Positions 1,331-36,373 of a stretch of DNA of 37,971 nt are shown piece after piece. Position 1 is the first letter of the stretch; each line of letters opens with the position of its first letter. The notes beneath the pieces were generated by a model. It had not been told where the DNA came from, searched no databases, and saw nothing but the letters and a program-made list of their open reading frames with translations. The stretch covers positions 1-37,971 of the forward strand of contig JADHSL010000017.1 in assembly GCA_016776925.1 (NCBI GenBank). Direction: 5' to 3'. The DNA comes from Pirellulales bacterium (GTDB lineage Bacteria > Planctomycetota > Planctomycetia > Pirellulales > UBA1268). The position numbers were made by a program, and so were the translations under genes.

Positions 1331-1687
1331 TGTTTTTCCTCCATGAAAGCTCTCATTTCATTACTTTGATCGCCTGCCAAATCCCTCTCACGCACGAGAG
1401 CCGGGCACTCAGGAATCACAGGACGGCCCTCCATGGCCCTAAGCAGTGATCCATCACGATCCCTCCAGGGAAGAAATCCCCCTGAAAACGCTTCGGCATA
1501 CCAGCCCCAGTAGCATCATGGAGACACCTGCGAAGCCATTCCAATAACCCCACGGATAAAGTCTGCCCCGGCAGACCTATCGGTACGGTTGGATTTTGAA
1601 CAGGAAATATCACTACACTTTGCCTCACTTACCCGGACCACCGAAATCCGGACTTTATTCCAGTCAAATCCCCGAATTCGTAGAACT
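1331..1687. other. Intergenic region between a secreted protein gene and topo VI B, with fragmentary reading frames
   Basis: No intact gene is supported. On the minus strand, three frames carry gene-like fragments in succession: a hydrophobic WGYWNGFAGVSMMLLGLV stretch around 1500-1550, then in another frame WYAEAFSGGFLPWRD and a charged tail ending EEKQ, whose TGA overlaps the ATG at 1330. This could be a small membrane-protein gene broken by frameshifts, or chance. A strong 16-base inverted repeat lies at 1561-1576. The plus-strand extension of the topo VI B frame (from 1589) also lies here. Confidence 0.3.
1561..1576. repeat. GC-rich hairpin GTCTGCC-CC-GGCAGAC
   Basis: Perfect seven-base inverted repeat with a two-base centre, effectively a six-pair stem with a four-base loop. 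It sits 112 bases before the preferred topo VI B start, so it may lie in that transcript's leader. There is no T run, so it is not a canonical terminator. Confidence 0.35.
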
Positions 1688-3850
1688 ATGGCCGCTTCTT
1701 CAACAAGAACCAGGAAAAAGAAAAAAACGAAAGCCCGTTCCTCTCGTGGCACGACGACTCAAGAGAGTTCAGCCTCGGTAGCAGAGGTAAGAAGACCACG
1801 AACAAAACGGCGAGCCACTGCTCAGAAACTCGCGACCGGACAACGAGATATTTCGGTCAGTGAGTTCTTTGCAAAGAATCGCCACCTACTCGGCTTTGAC
1901 TCTCCGAGAAAAGCACTGCTGACGAGTGTGAAAGAGGCTGTCGATAACTCACTCGACGCGTGTGAAGAAGCAGGCATCCTTCCCGAAATCTGGGTCCGTA
2001 TTGATCAGGCCGGTGAAACTGGCAATCGGTTTGCTGTCAGCGTACAGGACAACGGGCCAGGTATCGTTCGAAAACAGATACCCCTTATCTTTGGAAAACT
2101 TTTATACGGATCAAAGTTTCATCGTTTGAGAATGAGTCGAGGACAACAAGGAATTGGTATCTCTGCTGCAGGAATGTATGGAGTACTTACAACCGGCAAA
2201 CCGGTAAAAATTATTTCAAAGACTTCTCGTAAAGATCCAGCACACTATTACGAACTACGTATCGACACAAAAACAAACCAACCTGAAATTCTTAATGGCC
2301 GAGGTGCGGGTGTTGATATTCCACCCGGCAAGGCTGGTGATGCCATGATGCACAAGCGTGGCATCGAATGGGTAGCAAGAAATGACCTTGATGAAGACAC
2401 TGAGCATGGAACGCGTGTCACAATCGAGATGGAGGCAAAATTTCAACGCGGTCGTGGCAGCGTAGAGGAATACTTGGAGCAAACGGCAATTGCAAACCCT
2501 CACGCCCGTATTCATTTTCAGGGGCCAGATGGGAACGATCGGTTGCTGGAACGAGCAAACCATGAACTCCCTCCAGAGCCAAAAGAAATAAAACCACACC
2601 CTTACGGTGTCGAACTTGGCCGTCTTGTCACGCTGCTCCAAGAGCAGCCAAAAATGACATTGTCGCAATTTCTCAACCAAAGTTTTTCTCGTGTATCACC
2701 CACAACAGCTCGAAAACTTTGTAACGCTGCGGATCTTTCTACACGTATTAGTACAGGCAAGCTGGGACGTGGTGAGGCCGATGCTCTTTACACAGCTATC
2801 CAATCAACCCGAATTCCACCACCCGCTACAGACTGCGTCGTACCAATCGGTGAACAGCGACTATTGGCAGGGCTTCATCAAGTCGTGCCTGGTGAATTTT
2901 TTACAGCTGCAACACGACCTCCTGGAGTCTATCGAGGAAACCCTTTTGTCATCGAAGCTGCCCTCGCATACGGAGGTGCTGTCGCTGCAAGAAAAGTTTC
3001 ACTGGAAGCACTCACTGAACTTGCGGCTGAGAGTGATGCACGAAGCCTTCGCCAATTTCTTGCAACCACGTTTGGCGGTGTTGGCACAGAAGCGGCTGAT
3101 AAAATTTTAAATGAAGCGAAGCTAGCACCTCGTCAATCTCCCTCAAAGCTCAAAAAAGCGGCGATGCGAGATCTCCACGAGGCTATGAAGCATGTCAATC
3201 TCGATGAAGGCCAAAGCATGAATGTCCTTCGCTTTGCTAATCGAGTACCGCTTCAATTTCAACACGCAGCCTGCGCAATCACGCAGACCATGTTGTCAAC
3301 GAACTGGCGATCATATGGCCTCTCACAATCACGGGGAAGCCTTCCAAGCGCCCCGATCACTGTGATGGTTCACATGGCAAGCGTGTGGGTACCTTTTACC
3401 AGTGAATCAAAAGAGGCGATCGCCTCCTATCCAGAGATACAAAAGGAAATACGTTTAGCCCTCCAAGCGGTAGGACGAAAACTTGGCATGTACCTCAGGC
3501 GACGACTGAAAGTTGCACAGGAGGGCCAACGCCGAACAATTTTTCTTCGCTATTTAGGTGAGGTAGCTACAGCGGTTGCAACTATAAACGGGGGGAATCG
3601 GGAAAAAATCTACGAGGAACTCCTACGGGTTGCAAAGAAGAAAACATCCGAAGCAGATATTAAACTCGACGAATCTGGACAACCCCTGGAAGAACCTGAA
3701 GAACTTAACCTCGGCGACAACGTAATTATTGTTTCAGAGCATGACCATCAAAAACAAAATGATGATGAAGAGGATGAGGAAAAACCAAAGCCAAAGTTAA
3801 GGAAAAAGACAAAGAAGAAAGTAAGAAAAAAACGACGAGTGAAAAAGTAA
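1688..3850 (+). CDS. top6B: DNA topoisomerase VI subunit B (ATPase subunit), bacterial
   Basis: Type IIB topoisomerase ATPase subunit. In the A2B2 enzyme it closes on ATP binding while the Spo11-like A subunit cleaves DNA. The product has 720 residues from ATG 1688; the frame is open from 1589, but the extra part has no ribosome site and does not look conserved. Visible GHKL motifs are VKEAVDNSLDA (82-91, catalytic Glu83), DNGPGI (121-126), GQQGIGISAAG (152-162) and GTRVTIEM (241-248). An H2TH-like segment spans about 324-372, the PIGEQ linker follows, then the transducer with YRGNPFVIEAALAYGG, RFANRVPL and VPFTSESKEAI; the switch lysine is probably Lys575. Odd points: about 78 extra residues after AYGG (431-508) that resemble a second H2TH, Lys/Arg-rich tails at both ends, and no A-subunit gene in the window. 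Archaeal B subunits are usually about 530-660 residues. Confidence 0.95.
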   Translation: MAASSTRTRKKKKTKARSSRGTTTQESSASVAEVRRPRTKRRATAQKLATGQRDISVSEFFAKNRHLLGFDSPRKALLTSVKEAVDNSLDACEEAGILPEIWVRIDQAGETGNRFAVSVQDNGPGIVRKQIPLIFGKLLYGSKFHRLRMSRGQQGIGISAAGMYGVLTTGKPVKIISKTSRKDPAHYYELRIDTKTNQPEILNGRGAGVDIPPGKAGDAMMHKRGIEWVARNDLDEDTEHGTRVTIEMEAKFQRGRGSVEEYLEQTAIANPHARIHFQGPDGNDRLLERANHELPPEPKEIKPHPYGVELGRLVTLLQEQPKMTLSQFLNQSFSRVSPTTARKLCNAADLSTRISTGKLGRGEADALYTAIQSTRIPPPATDCVVPIGEQRLLAGLHQVVPGEFFTAATRPPGVYRGNPFVIEAALAYGGAVAARKVSLEALTELAAESDARSLRQFLATTFGGVGTEAADKILNEAKLAPRQSPSKLKKAAMRDLHEAMKHVNLDEGQSMNVLRFANRVPLQFQHAACAITQTMLSTNWRSYGLSQSRGSLPSAPITVMVHMASVWVPFTSESKEAIASYPEIQKEIRLALQAVGRKLGMYLRRRLKVAQEGQRRTIFLRYLGEVATAVATINGGNREKIYEELLRVAKKKTSEADIKLDESGQPLEEPEELNLGDNVIIVSEHDHQKQNDDEEDEEKPKPKLRKKTKKKVRKKRRVKK

Positions 3851-17987: not shown

Positions 17988-18953
17988 CTAGGCTTCAGCC
18001 ATCTCACGAGCATGATAGCTTGACCGAACAAGCGGTCCTGATGCAACTTGCTGAAAACCCATGCGCCGGGCAACATTGCCAAGCTCATCAAATTCATCTG
18101 GATGGACATATCGATCAACTGGCAGACTGTCGAGTGTCGGCTGTAAATATTGACCAAGTGTCAGGAAGTCAACGCCGTGACTCAATAAATCAGCAAACAC
18201 CTGAAGCAACTCTTCTCGTGTTTCTCCAAGCCCCAGCATCAAACCACTTTTCGTCTTCGTGCCTGGCATGATTTTTTTTGTATCCGCAAGTAATGTCAGT
18301 GTCCACTCATACACGCTCTTGCGTCCGCGGACTTGTCTGTAGAGTCGCGGCACCGTTTCAGTGTTGTGATTAAAGACATCAGGACGACTCTCAAGGAGTC
18401 GCTCGAGGGCACCTGGCTTGCCAATAAAATCAGGGACAAGCACTTCGATTGATGCCCCGGTTGCCTGCCTGACAGCTTCAACGGTTCTCCGGAAGTGTTC
18501 TGCACCACCATCAGGCAAATCATCACGTGTTACACTCGTGATCACTACATGTTTTAAACCAAGACGTCTTGCTGCCTCAGCGACTCGCTGCGGTTCATCA
18601 TCTTCAAGTTCTTCTGTTTTCCCTTTTGGCACTGAGCAAAATCCACACGGACGTGTGCACACGTTGCCGAGAATCATGAATGTTGCTGTCCCTGAAGACC
18701 AACATTCTAATCGATTGGGACATTTCGCGGACGAGCAGACCGTTTCCAATTCAAGCTCAGCAATCAGTCCGGCTGTCTCTCCATGTCCACCTCCCTCACC
18801 AAGATTCTGCCGCAACCATGGCGGGAGCCGCCGTGAGACGAGCATCGAGGGTTCTTGAGAAGTTGAACAACCAGATTGCTCTGCAGAAGTTTGCTCGTTG
18901 AGTATTGGCAACAGACTTACGGTATTCGTTGAAATTATTTGATTCTTCGACAC
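17988..18953 (-). CDS. lipA: Lipoyl synthase (radical SAM)
   Basis: A 321-residue enzyme that inserts two sulphur atoms into protein-bound octanoyl groups to make lipoyl. Both 4Fe-4S motifs are intact: the auxiliary cluster CSSAKCPNRLEC (Cx4Cx5C) and the radical SAM motif CTRPCGFC (Cx3Cx2C). TATFMILGNVC, HVVITSVTRDDLPDGGAEHF and VASGPLVRSSYHA are typical family blocks. GTG 18953 is chosen because TGAGGA lies seven bases upstream and overlaps the stop of the preceding gene; the open frame extends to 19181 but is then inside that gene. ATG 18845 is the alternative. It is the last gene of a coupled operon behind a LipB-like gene and a very large unknown. Confidence 0.95.
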   Translation of the reverse strand: MSKNQIISTNTVSLLPILNEQTSAEQSGCSTSQEPSMLVSRRLPPWLRQNLGEGGGHGETAGLIAELELETVCSSAKCPNRLECWSSGTATFMILGNVCTRPCGFCSVPKGKTEELEDDEPQRVAEAARRLGLKHVVITSVTRDDLPDGGAEHFRRTVEAVRQATGASIEVLVPDFIGKPGALERLLESRPDVFNHNTETVPRLYRQVRGRKSVYEWTLTLLADTKKIMPGTKTKSGLMLGLGETREELLQVFADLLSHGVDFLTLGQYLQPTLDSLPVDRYVHPDEFDELGNVARRMGFQQVASGPLVRSSYHAREMAEA

Positions 18954-18960
18954 GGATAAA

Positions 18961-18966
18961 TCCTCA
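18961..18966 (-). promoter_or_regulatory. Ribosome site TGAGGA overlapping a stop codon, sets the lipA start
   Basis: The TGA stop of the LipB-like gene (18966-18964) is the first part of TGAGGA, seven bases before GTG 18953. This supports translational coupling and a GTG start for lipA. Confidence 0.6.
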
Positions 18967-19749
18967 GGCACTCTTATTTGTTCGAATATGCGATCGTGTT
19001 TCACTATTTTGAGAAATTGGTACGCCAGACTGAATGGAGACATCTCCACACCCAAATGCATCTGCCAATGACCGAACAATCGCGGTGCGGGCATCTTGTA
19101 TACGTACCTTACGCCGGATCTCCGCTTGCACTGATCCCATCGTACGCTTCTTGATACCTGTGGCGACAGGCACCGTATCAATCCGGCGATAAAGCCCTAA
19201 ATCAGGACAAACATTCACAAAACCGCCGTGCCAGACAACTCCCCGACGAACCGCAAAACTGACAGCAGCAAGTAACCCTGAGCGACCAAAAATTCCTGGC
19301 TGACGTGAGTCACGAGCCGTTGAACACCTGAGGCTTTGAATAGCTGATTCGAGACCAAACTCAAATCGTTCAAGGAAACCACCAACATCATACGATGAAA
19401 GGCCAAGTTTTCTCAGAGGAGCAAACATGGCAATGCCAACCTGCCCTGGTCCGTGGAGTACAGCACCACCACCACGACCGACGAAACGTACTGCAATGCC
19501 TTTCCTTGCCAACTCATCAGAAGAAATATCAATGTCGACGTGTGACCCAAGCCGCCCAATCGTAATACCGGTGGCTGGCTCATAAATCACAAGTGTTGGA
19601 GATCGCCCATTTGGCTCTGAAACATCCCAAGCAATCCGCTCGGCCATGCTTTGATAGGCCTCTTGCTGGAGACGTCCTGCAAGCCACACACTCAATGGTC
19701 GCTGGCTTTCACTTGAATCGTAACAAGAATTCTTGCCGTGTGACGACAT
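18964..19749 (-). CDS. LipB/LplA-family protein lacking the catalytic lysine and cysteine
   Basis: A 261-residue member of the biotin/lipoate A/B transferase fold, whose canonical members move octanoyl or lipoyl groups onto E2 and GcvH domains. Family signatures are seen: GRGGGAVLHGPGQVGIAMF (91-109), and AAVSFAVRRGVVWHGGFVNV (161-180), matching the 'HG.a.NV' block. Two key features are missing. The invariant lysine of the GrKIA-type motif is replaced (GRSGLLAAV, 155-163; there is no Lys at all between residues 114 and 200), and the PCG cysteine of LipB is replaced in IDTVPVATG (190-198). It may therefore be non-catalytic or use other chemistry. ATG 19749 overlaps the TAA of the upstream gene, and the stop overlaps the lipA ribosome site, so it belongs with lipA. 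Confidence 0.8.
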   Translation of the reverse strand: MSSHGKNSCYDSSESQRPLSVWLAGRLQQEAYQSMAERIAWDVSEPNGRSPTLVIYEPATGITIGRLGSHVDIDISSDELARKGIAVRFVGRGGGAVLHGPGQVGIAMFAPLRKLGLSSYDVGGFLERFEFGLESAIQSLRCSTARDSRQPGIFGRSGLLAAVSFAVRRGVVWHGGFVNVCPDLGLYRRIDTVPVATGIKKRTMGSVQAEIRRKVRIQDARTAIVRSLADAFGCGDVSIQSGVPISQNSETRSHIRTNKSA

Positions 19750-22700
19750 TATAATCGCCCTTGCTTCTTCGAAACTGCATCAAGAAGTTGCGGCCAAGGC
19801 AACCGACTCCAGTACAGAGGCTCAGCAAGTGATGAAGGCATCACGTGCCGTTGATCATCTGGCGCAAGTCCTCCTGTCTCTGCTTCTTCAAGCACTCGAT
19901 CGACTGTTGCACTCAAGTGATCAAGCCAATCCGGCACTTCAACTCCCGCGCCAGTTGCCACACCAAGAAATTCTTCGGCGTGTGTCTCGAGTTGACTACC
20001 GGCACCGGCAGGCTGACCAGCAAGAAGTTCTCGAACGGCGGGCTCAACAAGTGATTCGAGTTCGTCCTGCTCGAGCATGGAAGTAAAGGGCCGTTGCACT
20101 CGATCAGAAACACTGGCCAGACGAACACCTGTCTTCTGCTGAAGTGCTGACAACCGTTCAATCAGTTCATTTGCCGTGCCTTCGGTTTCTTCCTCCATCC
20201 GTTGCCTCCAAGCAGATGCAGCCTCAGTCGCACCACTCCGCACAAGTACCCGATGAGCCATACTTACAGGACGAAGAGTCCAGACAATTCTTTCGTACTC
20301 TGCTTTAATTCGAAGAAACTCAAGCAGCACATAAAGATAGTCACCTCGATCAGATTGTGTTGTGGTCGAGTTCCAATCTCTATATTCCGAATGATTCTCG
20401 GCAACACTCTCCAGAACGAGTCGTAGTCGACTCGTTGCTTGTTTTAGTGAAATCTCACCAGTATTGATTGCTTCAATTAACTTGTCCGGGTGAGTCTTGT
20501 TGTATTCATCATCTGAATCAGAGTTCCGCCAATCTGATCCCGAGGCATTTTGTTCAATAAGATGCTCAAGAAATGGACGGACGCCACCACGGAGCACACT
20601 TCGCAAAGATGGTGGCGTAAGGAGATGTTGCGTGAAGAGTCCAGCACCATAACGCTCAACAAAATCCTTAATGATACGAAAGGATTTATCCTCTCGTACT
20701 CTCTCCAGCACAGAAAGCCGAAGTTGCCGAGCATGGGTGGTCCACGTTTCTAATAATTTGGGAATGAGAATAGCCAGTCCATCTAAAATTCTTTGTGTTG
20801 TCACAACACTTGATGGCTTGGACTCACCAGGTCCTGCTACCGGAGCACTTGCTACTATTCGACCTACAAGTGCGGTTGTCGCAGCTTCAAAAACCCTATC
20901 AAATTCACTGACGCTTGCTGCTCCTGGTGGACGCCGACTTTCCAGTTTTTTTGCCAGACGGACCAGACCAATTGTTTCTTCAACAAGACCTCGGCGGGGC
21001 AACACCGAAACAAGCCTTTCCAGAAGTCGTTCTCGCATTCTTGCTGCAAATACGCGATCTGCCCGACCACCCCGTGACAAAGGCACATAGAGCACTGTCT
21101 TGCCACGTAGATGATACCGAATACATTCCATCTGCTGATGAATCATTTGTTGGTCATCCACGAACACTGCAGCCAGTAACTTTCCAACCGCTGGTTTTGG
21201 AATCTTTCTGGAAGGATCTCGCTTTCCATCCTCTGAAGAAAGTGATGTTTTTTGGACAGTACCCTGAGCAATTGCAATCCTGGCTGAGAGCATCCAGATT
21301 GTTTCACCAGTTTGGAGAGCCGCCTCAAGAAGTCTTTCTGCGGCTATATCGCGTTGCCAGCGGAGACGATCAAACTCTGCAGCTGTCATTCCAGGTGGCT
21401 GCTCCTGATCCCGAGCAACAATATGCATTGCCGCACGTACCATAGCCCGGCGCAGCCGCCTCAACGTCTGTCGCCAACCCACAAAGGAATCAATCTCAGC
21501 AACTGCTGTGTGGATACGGCCGGCAGCGGCATCGAGACAACCCGTGACAACGGTTTGTCGGAGCATAACAATGACACCAGTTAAGAAATCAGCAGCTTCC
21601 TCCACCGCTACAACAGGGTTTGTAGCACCGGCAGGAAGATCAACGTCGAGCATTCCACCATCTATTCCATCGTCTGTCGAGTCCTGCCACACCATGGACT
21701 CGTAGGCCGATGCAACACTTTCATCTGCACCAATCTGATCGTCATCCGTCTCATCAGGCAATGGAGTCTCTGATGTATTTCGACTCAAGGGTTCTTGGCC
21801 TGATGCAGCGATATCAATCATTTCAGTGAGGCCAGCCGTGTTTGCTTCAACTAATTCAAGGAATCGTCGTACACGAATACAACCTGAATCACTGAGGTCC
21901 GTAAGCGCAAATCGAAGCCATCGATGGGCTGCTACTAACCATGAATTTCCGGAGTGATCAATTTCATCTCCTTCAAGCAGTGTTATCCAATGCACGAGCA
22001 ATCCCATAGCTGCATCAAAGTCCTTCTCTTGCAGAAGGGCATCAGCTGCTGCCGCATGAGTTCTTGCGGATGAAAAATCAGCAACTGCATCTCGCCAAAA
22101 TACAGGAGATAATGGAACTGGGGCAGTTGCTCGTCGTTCTTCTAACACGGCAACAACTTCTCGGGCAGATTGGAGCATTTCAAGACCGGATAGATACGTT
22201 ATGTCACCAACTGAGGTTGTCGCATATTGATCCCACCAAGATGCTAATTCTTCAACCAAACTACTGGCTTGATCTGAGATCTTTTTATTTGACTCAAGGC
22301 AGGATCGCTGCCACACCATACAAGCACATTCAAGGAGATTACCGACACTCCCAATCAGGTCATCCACTCGTGAATCTGGGAGTGCCTCTCCGCCCGGCTC
22401 ATGCAGTGGGAACTGGCCCGCAAAGCCAAGAATATTCCATGGATCAACCAATGCCCCGCAACCAATTCCTCGGAGGAGAAGATCTTTGGCCTCGCTGAGG
22501 GTGTCAACCGCCCTTTCGAGAGAATCTTCATCACCACGACGAGCAAGCCCCTGGGCGATAACGATACGACTTGTGATCCTCGCAAGCATTCGTGCACTTG
22601 CTGCCGGCACAAGACCCACCAAACGCTCAGCTGCATCTATTCGCCCAAGACGGGCAAGAACCGATGCCAGAGTTACACTCCCAACTTGCCGTGCGCGTCG

Positions 22701-23834
22701 GTCTGCAAGAAGCATATTAATGTGTCTTCGCACGCCGCCAAATGGCTGCTGCAGGCTCTGGGCCTCTTTTTCAAGGCGATGGCGATGATTGTCAGGAAGT
22801 CGAGTTATCAGCCAACGATAAAAGTTATCCCGGTACGCAGCAATCCGAGGAAGAAGGTCTGCGAGAGCCAGGCCAGACTGGACAGCACCAGGCCCACGAC
22901 CGGAGAGCCCGGAAGCCATCAGCATGACACCTGCCAACACAGCTGCGGATTCCTGCTGTAGTTCTTCAACCGGCACGCCAGGCTGGGCTTCAGCTGACCA
23001 CGATAAAATTCCTTCGAGTGTCGCCTGCTGGATAACAAGGCGACGATAGTAGCCTCGTTCATCAATACACATCGGGTCCCAAAGGCCAAAAAGATAGTTT
23101 GGACGGCTGGCTGCTGGATGTAAAAAATCAAAGGCTCGAGGATCGACTGACAGTTCAGTTAATAAATCCAATTCAAAATCAGCCTGCTGCAAAAGTTCCT
23201 TTGGGGCCTCGCTAAGAATTTGGATTGCTTGATCTACAAGTCTTGAAAAATGACCATGGGCTGCCCCTACACCACTTCTATAAATTGGAAGAGGCCTTAC
23301 TCGCTCATGGGAATACGGTTCCGATAACTGATCATTTTCGAGCACAGCAACGGGTCGCCAACCCATGTAATCATTGATCTTACGAAGCGTCTTCTCCACA
23401 AGAACATTGTCTTGTCCTTCCCACGGACCACCAGTCTCAAGGACCGCCTGAAACACAGCCATCAGAAAGAATGGGCGCTCCATAGCCCCGATTGCCTGAT
23501 GTTCTAAAAGATCAGAGTGGAATGCCCGATACGCCGGCAACACATTGTCAAAAACAATTCTTAGAACACCCTCAGCTTGGCCAACGTCACGAAATGCCGG
23601 ATCCGTTTGGTGAAGCCGCTTCAAGGCTTCCCGTAAAGCATCTGCCACGTTATCCACCGTATCCGACCGTTCAACAATTTCACCATTGGCAGTAATTGGC
23701 TCAAACTCTGCATAAAGACTATTAATAGACTTCCACGCTGACACATCAAAAGCACCAGCTGAAAAATTCAGATACCCAAGAAGCAGGGCAAATGAATTCG
23801 GTAGTTCAGCAGCAGATTGGGAAACCTTTGGCAT
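19749..23834 (-). CDS. Very large unknown protein (1361 residues), first gene of the LipB-like/lipA operon
   Basis: A cytoplasmic-looking 1361-residue protein without signal peptide or membrane segments. It is mostly alpha-helical, rich in Ala, Leu, Arg and Glu, with TPR-like stretches (LASVLARLGRIDAAERLVGL, ITSRIVIAQGLARRGDED, DAAMGLLVHWITLLEGDE). An acidic linker near residues 680-720 (LPDETDDDQIGADESVAS) divides it into two large halves. No catalytic motif, P-loop or metal cluster is recognised. It is preceded by a divergent 248-base gap shared with the PQQ-type gene, and its stop (TAA) overlaps the next ATG in TAATG, so the LipB-like gene is translated in its wake. The coupling suggests a shared function with lipoyl metabolism, which is inference only. 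Confidence 0.7.
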   Translation of the reverse strand: MPKVSQSAAELPNSFALLLGYLNFSAGAFDVSAWKSINSLYAEFEPITANGEIVERSDTVDNVADALREALKRLHQTDPAFRDVGQAEGVLRIVFDNVLPAYRAFHSDLLEHQAIGAMERPFFLMAVFQAVLETGGPWEGQDNVLVEKTLRKINDYMGWRPVAVLENDQLSEPYSHERVRPLPIYRSGVGAAHGHFSRLVDQAIQILSEAPKELLQQADFELDLLTELSVDPRAFDFLHPAASRPNYLFGLWDPMCIDERGYYRRLVIQQATLEGILSWSAEAQPGVPVEELQQESAAVLAGVMLMASGLSGRGPGAVQSGLALADLLPRIAAYRDNFYRWLITRLPDNHRHRLEKEAQSLQQPFGGVRRHINMLLADRRARQVGSVTLASVLARLGRIDAAERLVGLVPAASARMLARITSRIVIAQGLARRGDEDSLERAVDTLSEAKDLLLRGIGCGALVDPWNILGFAGQFPLHEPGGEALPDSRVDDLIGSVGNLLECACMVWQRSCLESNKKISDQASSLVEELASWWDQYATTSVGDITYLSGLEMLQSAREVVAVLEERRATAPVPLSPVFWRDAVADFSSARTHAAAADALLQEKDFDAAMGLLVHWITLLEGDEIDHSGNSWLVAAHRWLRFALTDLSDSGCIRVRRFLELVEANTAGLTEMIDIAASGQEPLSRNTSETPLPDETDDDQIGADESVASAYESMVWQDSTDDGIDGGMLDVDLPAGATNPVVAVEEAADFLTGVIVMLRQTVVTGCLDAAAGRIHTAVAEIDSFVGWRQTLRRLRRAMVRAAMHIVARDQEQPPGMTAAEFDRLRWQRDIAAERLLEAALQTGETIWMLSARIAIAQGTVQKTSLSSEDGKRDPSRKIPKPAVGKLLAAVFVDDQQMIHQQMECIRYHLRGKTVLYVPLSRGGRADRVFAARMRERLLERLVSVLPRRGLVEETIGLVRLAKKLESRRPPGAASVSEFDRVFEAATTALVGRIVASAPVAGPGESKPSSVVTTQRILDGLAILIPKLLETWTTHARQLRLSVLERVREDKSFRIIKDFVERYGAGLFTQHLLTPPSLRSVLRGGVRPFLEHLIEQNASGSDWRNSDSDDEYNKTHPDKLIEAINTGEISLKQATSRLRLVLESVAENHSEYRDWNSTTTQSDRGDYLYVLLEFLRIKAEYERIVWTLRPVSMAHRVLVRSGATEAASAWRQRMEEETEGTANELIERLSALQQKTGVRLASVSDRVQRPFTSMLEQDELESLVEPAVRELLAGQPAGAGSQLETHAEEFLGVATGAGVEVPDWLDHLSATVDRVLEEAETGGLAPDDQRHVMPSSLAEPLYWSRLPWPQLLDAVSKKQGRL

Positions 23835-30578: not shown

Positions 30579-32249
30579 TCACTCACTTGCAACATTTCCC
30601 TGTTCGTGCACCTCGGACAGTCTTTCAACAAAACGAGGACTGGCGTTCTGAAGCATGAATACTTCACTATCTGCTTGGCTTGCTCCACGAGGTCGAACAA
30701 TGCATATCACCTCAGCATCCCCTCCATGTTCCCGCACGTGATCGAGTAGAGCTTGCTCACCTGCAGAAAGACCATGCATCTGCTCACCATCTTCTATGGC
30801 TTGTGGCAAAGGAGGATTTGAGGATTGTCTTTCATTTTGATTGACACGTAGTGGATCAACACCTTCCGCAGATAATCGTGGACCACTTGATGCAGTAGGA
30901 ACAGCATCTGCTCTGTCACGACGATCAAAAGAAAAAGCTGGCATCGCATCTGGCAAATGAGGCACGGTTGTTTTGTCAGCGTTTCCTGCAAGTTCATTTT
31001 CAGTGCCGGGGTAAACATGTCTGTAGACAAACGCGAGTCCAGCCTCGTCAAGATGTTCATGAATTGACGGAAGTGCTGCAAAAAGCCCTTCGTTGTCCTC
31101 CGGGTCAGCCGCGTTGCAGACGCCTAAAAGTGTTCCATCAAGTGCAAATAAACCGCCGCCGCTACGGCCCTGTACCGGCTGTCCAGCAACCTGAACATTC
31201 GCCGGACCAAGGTACTTATCGACTGAAGTAACTCGACTCACATGCATCGTAGGCTCACGACCTCCGTCACAACCGATCGTGGCAACACCTTCACCAACGT
31301 CACGCGGGCGACCAACAGAGCCAATTTTGACAGGCTCCAAAATTGCCTCTGTGAAAACACTAACGAGTGCAAGATCACGGTCCAAATCATACGACACCAT
31401 CTGTCCTGCTAAACGATCAGCAGAGGGGTCACCAAACAAATCGACCTCAATCGTGCCTTCTCCAACAGAATCGCGGAAAATATGACCACAAGTAAGTATC
31501 AGCGCTTCTCCTTGTCGACAATCGATGACGGTTCCGGTTCCCCAGGAAGCTCCATTCGGATCCTGTACTCGTAATCTCGCGGTAGCCTGAATCAGGTTGC
31601 GTTGAAGTGCAGATTTCGTTTCAACAGCTAATGTGGGTGGTGGTGCCAGAACTGGTTGCTGTTTTGCACCTTGTGGATCTCGAAGTGACCGTTCCGCAGC
31701 CTGGTCAACAAGCGGTTGGCTCACCGAACCTGACAGTTGTGCCGGCGGATGAACCGTAGGTGACACTGCAGACTCTGTTGCAAGATGGGTAGCGGAATTA
31801 CTTACGGGGACAGGTACCCCAGGTATTTGATGAACAGTTGGAGAATCAGTTGGGACAGCGAGTTTCGGCAAGCCCAATGGCTGCCGACTTTGTGCAAGTA
31901 GCTTTTCAAGCTCACTCCGAGTGGTAGCCCCATCGATTCGACCAACTTCATGACCCTTTACCAACAAGATATAGCAGGGGACTCCTGTTACCTGAAACCG
32001 CTTGACGATATCGTGTTCTTGGTCGACATCTACGTGACGGACAAGCCAACCGGCTGCACCAATTTCTCCAATAAGAGGTGCCATCTGCTGACAGGGACCA
32101 CACCAGTCCGCAGAGAAATCGAGTAGGACAACATCACCTGTTGTTGCAGCTGTTGCCGGCGCAGTTGTTTGGCAGCGCCCAATACTGGGTGACAGCCAAA
32201 CAAGACTAAAAACAACAGACAACAATACAAAGCGAAAGACTCGGGACAT
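30579..32249 (-). CDS. Exported thioredoxin-domain / trypsin-like serine protease fusion
   Basis: A 556-residue protein from ATG 32249, preferred over ATG 32261 because GGAG lies six bases upstream. The signal peptide is MSRVFRFVLLSVVFSLVWLS. A thioredoxin domain (about 37-120) has the redox motif SADWCGPCQQMAP (Cys49/Cys52 in the shorter numbering) and GVPCYILL at the cis-proline loop. A Pro/Ser-rich linker of about 80 residues follows. Residues about 220-400 are a chymotrypsin-fold S1C-like domain with an intact triad: LTCGHIF (His256), DLDRDLALV (Asp292) and QGRSGGGLF (Ser363). The C-terminal 150 residues are low-complexity, then a helical segment. It may link disulphide chemistry with proteolysis in the periplasm; no PDZ domain is seen. 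It is upstream of the phosphatase gene. Confidence 0.85.
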   Translation of the reverse strand: MSRVFRFVLLSVVFSLVWLSPSIGRCQTTAPATAATTGDVVLLDFSADWCGPCQQMAPLIGEIGAAGWLVRHVDVDQEHDIVKRFQVTGVPCYILLVKGHEVGRIDGATTRSELEKLLAQSRQPLGLPKLAVPTDSPTVHQIPGVPVPVSNSATHLATESAVSPTVHPPAQLSGSVSQPLVDQAAERSLRDPQGAKQQPVLAPPPTLAVETKSALQRNLIQATARLRVQDPNGASWGTGTVIDCRQGEALILTCGHIFRDSVGEGTIEVDLFGDPSADRLAGQMVSYDLDRDLALVSVFTEAILEPVKIGSVGRPRDVGEGVATIGCDGGREPTMHVSRVTSVDKYLGPANVQVAGQPVQGRSGGGLFALDGTLLGVCNAADPEDNEGLFAALPSIHEHLDEAGLAFVYRHVYPGTENELAGNADKTTVPHLPDAMPAFSFDRRDRADAVPTASSGPRLSAEGVDPLRVNQNERQSSNPPLPQAIEDGEQMHGLSAGEQALLDHVREHGGDAEVICIVRPRGASQADSEVFMLQNASPRFVERLSEVHEQGNVASE

Positions 32250-32657
32250 CCGTGACTCCATGAGACCTAAACTTTTTCAGGCCAGTAATTTGCACTCGTA
32301 GTGTCTGGTGAGCACTCAGTCCGCCAGTGACATCCTTGTCATTGGGAAAACAAACCAACTCACCAAAAACCAGACGGTGGGATAGTGGCGGCGGCATGGG
32401 GCCGCGGACAAGAGCATTTTTCTCATAACGGCCTAAAAACGGAACGTGAGGCAATTCGGGTAGGGTACGGAAATCGGGGTTCCTATAGCCTGATACGCAA
32501 GCTAGTCTGCCCACGTACTGAAGTACCTCGCACAATGGCTTTTCTTGAATTCAGCATTCGTTTTAGACTATCATTTCGTGGATTCGATCAATGCAGCCCA
32601 CGAAGCGGCACGGTATCGAGCTACCACCATCCTGTGCTCTTTCGCTCATAAGGCATC
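32250..32657. other. Divergent intergenic region before metG
   Basis: About 400 bases without a supported gene between the divergent protease-fusion gene and metG. It holds a GC-rich inverted repeat (GCGGC 32388-32392 / GCCGC 32401-32405) and a possible metG promoter at 32545-32574. Open frames on both strands (32206-32535 minus, 32385-32651 plus) lack ribosome sites and protein-like composition. Confidence 0.45.
32545..32574 (+). promoter_or_regulatory. Possible sigma-70-type promoter of metG
   Basis: TTGAAT (32545-32550) and TATCAT (32569-32574) are spaced by 18 bases, about 85 bases before the metG start. Both boxes match the consensus at four or five of six positions. Position and spacing fit, but such matches arise by chance. 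Confidence 0.3.
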
Positions 32658-35428: not shown

Positions 35429-36373
35429 ATGTCTGTTCGCCCACTTCTTCAACGCCAAGCCAGGGTTCGTTCTCTGATCCGTCATCGCCTCGAGAGTCGA
35501 GGTTTCCTGGAAGTTGACACGCCAATTGTTGCGAGTGAATTACTACCAGAGGTCTCGATTGACCCTTACACGGTCATGCATGGGAACGAAAAAAAATTCC
35601 TGCCGACCAGTCCAGAACCTCACATGAAGCGATTGCTTGCAGAAGATTCGGGGTCGATTTTTCAGTTTGCACATTGCTTTCGAAGAGACGAGCGAGGGCC
35701 ATATCATGATACTGAATTCACCATGCTCGAATGGTACGAACCCGGGGCAGATCTAACTTCAACTGCTGAATTAATCACACTGCTCTTGCATGATTCGCTC
35801 CATACCAATGGACTTCAAAGACTATCCTGCAGGGAGGCATTCATTCAGCATGCCGGCATAGACCCGATGACGGCCAGTGTTGGTGCCTTCGTGCAGGCAT
35901 CTCATTTTCATGACGTTGGAATACCAGACAGCATTTCTAGCCTTCCTGAAGAACAGCAGTGGAGCCTCGTATTTGAACTCTTACTTTCCGAGATCGTTTC
36001 TCCACAGCTTGGAACTCCTCAACCAACCATGCTTGAATTCTGGCCTGCGAGTGAGTCTGCATTCGCGCAATTGGACTCAACAGACAAACAGGTGTCACTT
36101 CGCTTTGAGGTTTTCGTTGCCGGCATTGAACTTATGAATGGGTGGCAGGAAGAGACCTGCTCTTCAACTATTCAAAATCGACTCGAAAAGACAAACATCA
36201 TTCGGACTTCATTTGAAAAACAAAAGCTACCTCTCCCAAATAGATTACTTGCCGTGCACGATAATATGCCGGAAGGTGTTGGGGTTGCCCTTGGATTCGA
36301 TCGTCTCGTGATGTTAGCGTCTGGGGCCGATTCAATCGATGCCGTCCGTTACTTCAATTCAGACAATTCCTGA
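35429..36373 (+). CDS. epmA: EpmA/GenX/PoxA-like lysyl-tRNA-synthetase paralogue (EF-P lysyltransferase)
   Basis: A 314-residue class II synthetase catalytic core without an anticodon-binding domain, as in EpmA, which attaches beta-lysine to elongation factor P. Motif 2 and the neighbouring block read PTSPEPHMKRLLAEDSG, IFQFAHCFRRDERG and TEFTMLEWYEPG. The lysine-site segment is VFVAGIELMNGWQEE, and motif 3 is GVGVALGFDRLVML. Length and domain content fit EpmA (about 325 residues). No efp or epmB (lysine 2,3-aminomutase) gene is in the window, so the substrate is inferred from the family. It starts 44 bases after the universal stress gene and has no clear ribosome site. Confidence 0.88.
   Translation: MSVRPLLQRQARVRSLIRHRLESRGFLEVDTPIVASELLPEVSIDPYTVMHGNEKKFLPTSPEPHMKRLLAEDSGSIFQFAHCFRRDERGPYHDTEFTMLEWYEPGADLTSTAELITLLLHDSLHTNGLQRLSCREAFIQHAGIDPMTASVGAFVQASHFHDVGIPDSISSLPEEQQWSLVFELLLSEIVSPQLGTPQPTMLEFWPASESAFAQLDSTDKQVSLRFEVFVAGIELMNGWQEETCSSTIQNRLEKTNIIRTSFEKQKLPLPNRLLAVHDNMPEGVGVALGFDRLVMLASGADSIDAVRYFNSDNS

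Follow-up and report, generated by a model that had tools for sequence, protein, structure and literature searches.

In the class Planctomycetia, the octanoyltransferase LipB appears to have become a class-wide pseudoenzyme or re-purposed protein, which lacks both residues of the catalytic Lys/Cys dyad and is coupled to lipA, the gene for lipoyl synthase. The explanation we prefer, with a probability of about 0.45, is that LipB, without leaving its lipB-lipA operon, turned into a protein that binds LipA as a partner and no longer catalyzes. No published account of the dyad-less protein was found in the literature searched, and the papers searched contained no pseudoenzymes of the lipoate pathway. 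Our data come from one window, i.e., the whole stretch of DNA analyzed (37,971 nucleotides from a Pirellulales bacterium), and from orthologues gathered from its relatives, phylum and class. The following features of the window are considered.

19749..23834, minus strand: upstream gene for a 1361-aa protein, with a 1-nt overlap (TAATG) with the lipB-like start
18964..19749, minus strand: dyad-less lipB-like gene, 261 aa, ATG start (Pfam, NCBIfam, AlphaFold2 model and fold match)
19441..19476, minus strand: codons for R92-Q103, RGGGAVLHGPGQ, the retained acyl/phosphopantetheine-binding loop (sequence and conservation)
19273..19275, minus strand: Leu159 codon, at the alignment position of the catalytic Lys (K135 of E. 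coli LipB)
19171..19173, minus strand: Val193 codon, at the alignment position of the catalytic Cys (C169 of E. coli LipB)
18964..18971, minus strand: 8-nt overlap of the lipA start and the lipB-like stop (GTGCCTGA; sequence)
17988..18971, minus strand: lipA, lipoyl synthase, with a probable GTG start at 18971 and intact cluster and RSSY motifs

Two LipB fold signatures that a sequence-only reading had pointed out, RGGGAVLHGPGQ (residues 92-103) and HGGFVNV (residues 174-180), are both retained in the window protein. The LplA/LipB catalytic domain (PF21948; 66 bits against a cut-off of 27) is its sole Pfam domain, with no accessory domain, and its Pfam and NCBIfam matches include no DNA- or RNA-binding domain. 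The NCBIfam matches are exclusively LipB models, all far under cut-off (43.2 vs 83.55 bits for TIGR00214; 45.4 vs 155 bits for NF010925). The closest solved structures by sequence are the LipBs of T. thermophilus and M. tuberculosis, and an AlphaFold2 model (mean pLDDT 86) matched T. thermophilus LipB (2qhs) over 210 residues with a Z score of 28.9 and an rmsd of 1.8. Judged from this model, the protein has a LipB fold.

The dyad-less proteins share with the LipBs of E. coli, M. tuberculosis and T. thermophilus the fold, the RGG loop, the HxPGQ and N(V/I) motifs, a neighboring lipA and a position in the LipB tree. The RGG loop and the pocket residues R, H, Q and T/S, which are used as a criterion for LipB, are present in them as well. 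Unlike LipB, the protein scores under every NCBIfam LipB equivalog cut-off. Because the two defining residues were tested and are absent, it falls outside LipB by membership, but it descends from LipB.

The absence of the dyad was established by aligning 92 distinct dyad-less proteins with 20 canonical LipBs. The former comprise the window protein and 91 other distinct sequences in which the dyad was read, drawn from 159 carrier genomes (the dyad-less profile matches 162 of the 219 genomes of the class, three of which have a canonical LipB instead: G043, G436 and G454). The latter include 16 LipBs from other Planctomycetota, those three from Planctomycetia and the E. coli protein. All 20 canonical sequences have Lys in the Lys column, compared with 0/92 dyad-less ones, in which the position is occupied by Gln (37), Leu (36), Arg (7), Met (6), Val (3) and others; the Cys column contains Cys in 20/20 and 0/92, respectively. 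Leu159 and Val193 occupy these columns in the window protein. Both losses had been noticed by the sequence-only reading in a single protein, and they proved fixed in all 92 class orthologues; its statement that no Lys occurs between residues 114 and 200 is also exact (Lys at 6, 83, 114, 200, 201, 214 and 259; Cys at 9, 142, 181 and 234).

In a maximum-likelihood tree of a sample of these proteins, the dyad-less sequences form a single clade (100/100) among canonical LipBs, apart from LipM and LplA-like proteins, and therefore the loss is most simply one event. A profile search of a contig collection with a narrow alignment yielded 51 loci, whose titles indicate planctomycete MAGs except for one named just "bacterium". 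We also considered a Lys supplied from another position. This was rejected, as no column of the 92 sequences has Lys in more than 22%, and K200/K201 were rejected specifically, being unconserved and located in or beside a low-confidence loop of the model.

Could the gene be a decaying remnant, retained solely through its translational coupling to lipA? Such a scenario would fit the multiple independent losses of the gene and the occurrence of a catalytically inactive enzyme next to an intact one. However, same-genus orthologues have dN/dS values of about 0.07-0.18, no stops occur inside matches, and R92, H99 and Q103 (91/92 each, 99%) and Pro244 (89/92, 97%) are conserved across the class. The sequences thus indicate purifying selection, and these selection data refute pure decay; we consider the remnant scenario highly improbable. 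Decay or sequencing error was likewise rejected as the source of the missing dyad, given the dN/dS values and the frames that are open in independent genomes.

Statements on the pocket are based on alignment to published LipB positions. R76, H83, Q87 and T54 of M. tuberculosis LipB, listed as pocket or nucleotide-site residues (PMC9307952), correspond to R92, H99, Q103 and T63 of the window protein; position 63 is Thr or Ser in 92/92. Other parts of the site have changed. The equivalent of M. tuberculosis T81 is lost (V97 in the window protein), that of H157 (H174) is retained in 63/92, and the HG motif is often YG or FG in other families of Planctomycetia, from which we conclude that the pocket is partly remodelled. 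Compared with LipB, the dyad-less proteins have other residues fixed in place of Lys and Cys, have lost Thr97 and often His174, and have gained Ser69 (88/92, 96%, vs 15% in LipB), Arg221 (82/92), Pro244, a C-terminal extension and, in most relatives, Cys56. The nearest known parallel is the engineered E. coli LipB K135A/C169A, which has no activity but retains octanoyl-ACP binding and in which NMR reveals perturbation by octanoyl-CoA (PMC9307952). That protein is a double mutant made in the laboratory; the planctomycete protein occurs naturally throughout the class and has diverged considerably.

Cys56 bears on whether catalysis has been lost at all. Position 56 lies on a strand lining the pocket and aligns with Leu47 of M. 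tuberculosis LipB, an acyl-pocket position (PMC9307952). Cys is present there in 69/92 dyad-less proteins (55/60 when the window's family is set aside) and in 0/20 canonical LipBs. Within the window's family of 32, position 56 is not Cys in 18 (14 Tyr, 2 Gly, 1 His and 1 Ser). The window protein is among these and has Tyr, and therefore the residue is not needed family-wide. One alternative is that the protein is still an acyltransferase, using another residue or substrate-assisted catalysis, for example to move octanoyl or lipoyl groups between GcvH and E2 domains. Cys56 would be its candidate nucleophile, the conservation of Ser69 is in line with such a role, and unknown amidotransferases have been called for in LipM organisms (PMC10332631). 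Against it, Cys56 is missing from the window protein and 17 others of its family and Lys does not exceed 22% in any column, so that no single residue replaces the dyad. We regard this alternative as unlikely. Because Cys56 is found in most relatives outside the window's family, a new catalytic mechanism retains some probability, and a related proposal can be made for the class as a whole: a LipB whose nucleophile moved to Cys56 or was dispensed with would serve as a carrier or amidotransferase that feeds octanoyl-lysine to LipA, the window's lineage lacking Cys56. This appears to us rather improbable.

The distribution of other proteins of this fold suggests which enzyme does LipB's job. The sequence-only reading had raised the question of a canonical LipB or LplA elsewhere in the genome. 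No canonical LipB was found in the source genome (93% complete), which has three PF21948 proteins, namely the dyad-less LipB, a LipM-like protein and an LplA-like protein. The LipM-like protein (C29) is encoded directly after gcvH (the pair at L003 1034-2235) and contains both Cys and Lys (NFYCF, NHKILGSAQ); it is likely the actual octanoyltransferase of the organism. The LplA-like protein (C11; L001 1435-2193) has no accessory domain, retains a catalytic Lys (RKISGNAL) and has a GPGC motif, shared by most relatives, where LipB has HGPGQ. It is a candidate amidotransferase or ligase. Further LplA-type proteins, with GKIGGAAQ and VRRM(T/S)GGGAM motifs, were observed in six loci of Gemmataceae-like and other organisms (L223, L225, L226, L227, L228 and L238), and most proteins of the GKIGGAAQ type have an N-terminal domain that resembles, by eye, the lipoate-ligase accessory domain.

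A profile search detected LipM in 210/219 class genomes and in 154/159 carriers of the dyad-less protein, and other LipM- or LplA-type proteins occur in 157/159 carriers. LipB and LipM in one genome have been described as very rare (PMC10332631); in the carriers with LipM, the LipB homologue that co-occurs with it is the dyad-less form. Among the five carriers without LipM, one (G448) has a second PF21948 match and two (G475 and G530) have another LplA-type protein bearing Lys. In the remaining two, G368 and G045, BirA is the sole other member of the LplA/LipB fold found, and G368 (rated 100% complete) retains lipA beside the dyad-less gene. These two genomes favor the retained acyltransferase activity discussed above, but both assemblies are fragmented (220 and 430 contigs, respectively), and the near-constant presence of LipM argues against it.

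Known enzymes of the superfamily differ from the dyad-less protein in other respects. LipM shares with it the superfamily, the pathway and, here, the genome, but LipM has Lys and Cys (PFLCF, K.GSAQRR) and forms a separate clade, and the window protein has neither the cysteine loop nor a Lys in the GSAQRR region. LipL and LplA share the fold, and GcvH-to-E2 transfer or ligation would be a possible niche. LplA depends on a catalytic Lys together with an accessory domain at the C terminus; the corresponding requirement of LipL is an active-site Cys. Neither the Lys nor the accessory domain of LplA is present in the window protein. With regard to LipL, the window protein has no LipM-type cysteine loop, and position 56, Cys in 69/92 relatives, is Tyr here.

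The sequence-only reading described a translational coupling to an intact lipoyl synthase gene, and the 8-nt overlap bears this out; the encoded LipA has the CX4CX5C, CX3CX2C and RSSY motifs and scores above the TIGR00510 cut-off (349.5 vs 310.25 bits). The gene is followed immediately by lipA in 84/89 testable dyad-less loci, and in 61/84 of these the lipB-like stop is overlapped by a lipA start in frame. Start codons occur in 39/80 in the control frame, and for this reason the overlap is taken as suggestive and toned down as proof of coupling. Taken together, the lipB-like/lipA coupling appears real at the sequence level in the window, and across loci the overlap, moderately above control, suggests the same. 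Canonical lipB-lipA adjacency was also seen in other Planctomycetota loci, which leads us to propose that the dyad was lost in place.

Only in the window's own family is the lipB-like gene accompanied by the 1361-aa upstream gene, which is the first of three overlapping genes and whose product has no Pfam match. Elsewhere in Planctomycetia, one locus (L239 1440-3072, from G436) encodes a canonical LipB with Lys and Cys fused to LipA in a single open frame, so both activities are possible on one chain. The window itself encodes several further proteins, including a DNA topoisomerase VI subunit B (1682-3850, plus strand; PRK04184, 672 bits, and TIGR01052, 501 bits, both NCBIfam), an EpmA/GenX-like EF-P lysine ligase (35429-36373, plus strand; TIGR00462, 274.5 bits, slightly below the cut-off of 286.9), and a protein that combines an N-terminal thioredoxin domain with a trypsin-like peptidase domain (30579-32261, minus strand). 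DNA topoisomerase VI is best known from archaea and plants.

The overlap also allows for a different role, in which the protein senses octanoyl-ACP, octanoyl-CoA or lipoate and tunes the level or activity of LipA, partly via overlapping translation. Binding residues that are retained while the dyad is gone, the start-stop overlap and the dispensability of the gene, which suits a tuning function, all agree with a ligand-binding sensor. The protein, however, has no domain for binding DNA or RNA, and adjacency to lipA is equally consistent with a physical partner; a sensor role is in our view unlikely.

Within the order, the dyad-less gene was lost repeatedly, and the well supported branches of the LipA tree require a minimum of five changes of label. 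An obligate partnership with LipA was dropped from consideration, as 12/14 genomes without the gene retain a vertically inherited LipA; the other two carry a replaced LipA. As lipA persisted through several losses of the gene, LipA does not need the dyad-less protein. In five genomes without it (G274, G458, G500, G524 and G535), LipM is the sole LplA/LipB-fold enzyme above the PF21948 cut-off. A functional exchange between the dyad-less protein and the C11 LplA-like protein, to which the first 46 genomes had pointed, none of them being LipM-only, was dropped when LipM-only genomes appeared.

Our preferred reading, the non-catalytic binding partner of LipA, would involve the following steps. 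Around the time when the class arose, LipB lost its dyad in a single event within the lipB-lipA operon, and a LipM-type enzyme took over the transferase job. The dyad-less protein would still bind an octanoyl group, carried either by acyl carrier protein or by the octanoylated lipoyl domain that LipA uses as substrate, and would act as an adaptor or substrate-presenting partner made in step with LipA. We infer both the binding of an octanoyl substrate and the contact with LipA. The fold, tree position, lipA adjacency, retained pocket residues, dN/dS values, presence of LipM, octanoyl-ACP binding by the engineered E. coli double mutant and the canonical LipB-LipA fusion speak in its favor; the partly remodelled pocket, the dispensability of the gene, the moderate overlap signal and the two genomes in which BirA is the sole other fold member found speak against it. 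Sequence alone does not single out one of the roles listed earlier (a regulator, a carrier or a transferase working by a new mechanism), but the evidence favors non-catalytic binding, because LipM- or LplA-type proteins occur alongside the dyad-less one and neither an invariant nucleophile nor an invariant Lys has arisen in place of the lost residues.

These findings call for caution in annotating dyad-less genes as LipB, as homology-based LipB counts would misscore these genomes. They are also relevant to how bacteria that use LipM handle octanoyl groups, and to the identity of the proteins other than LipM and LipL that take part (PMC10332631). A dyad-less protein that is fixed in the class, retains binding residues and is coupled to lipoyl synthase would make the feeding of LipA by a dedicated partner a testable proposition.
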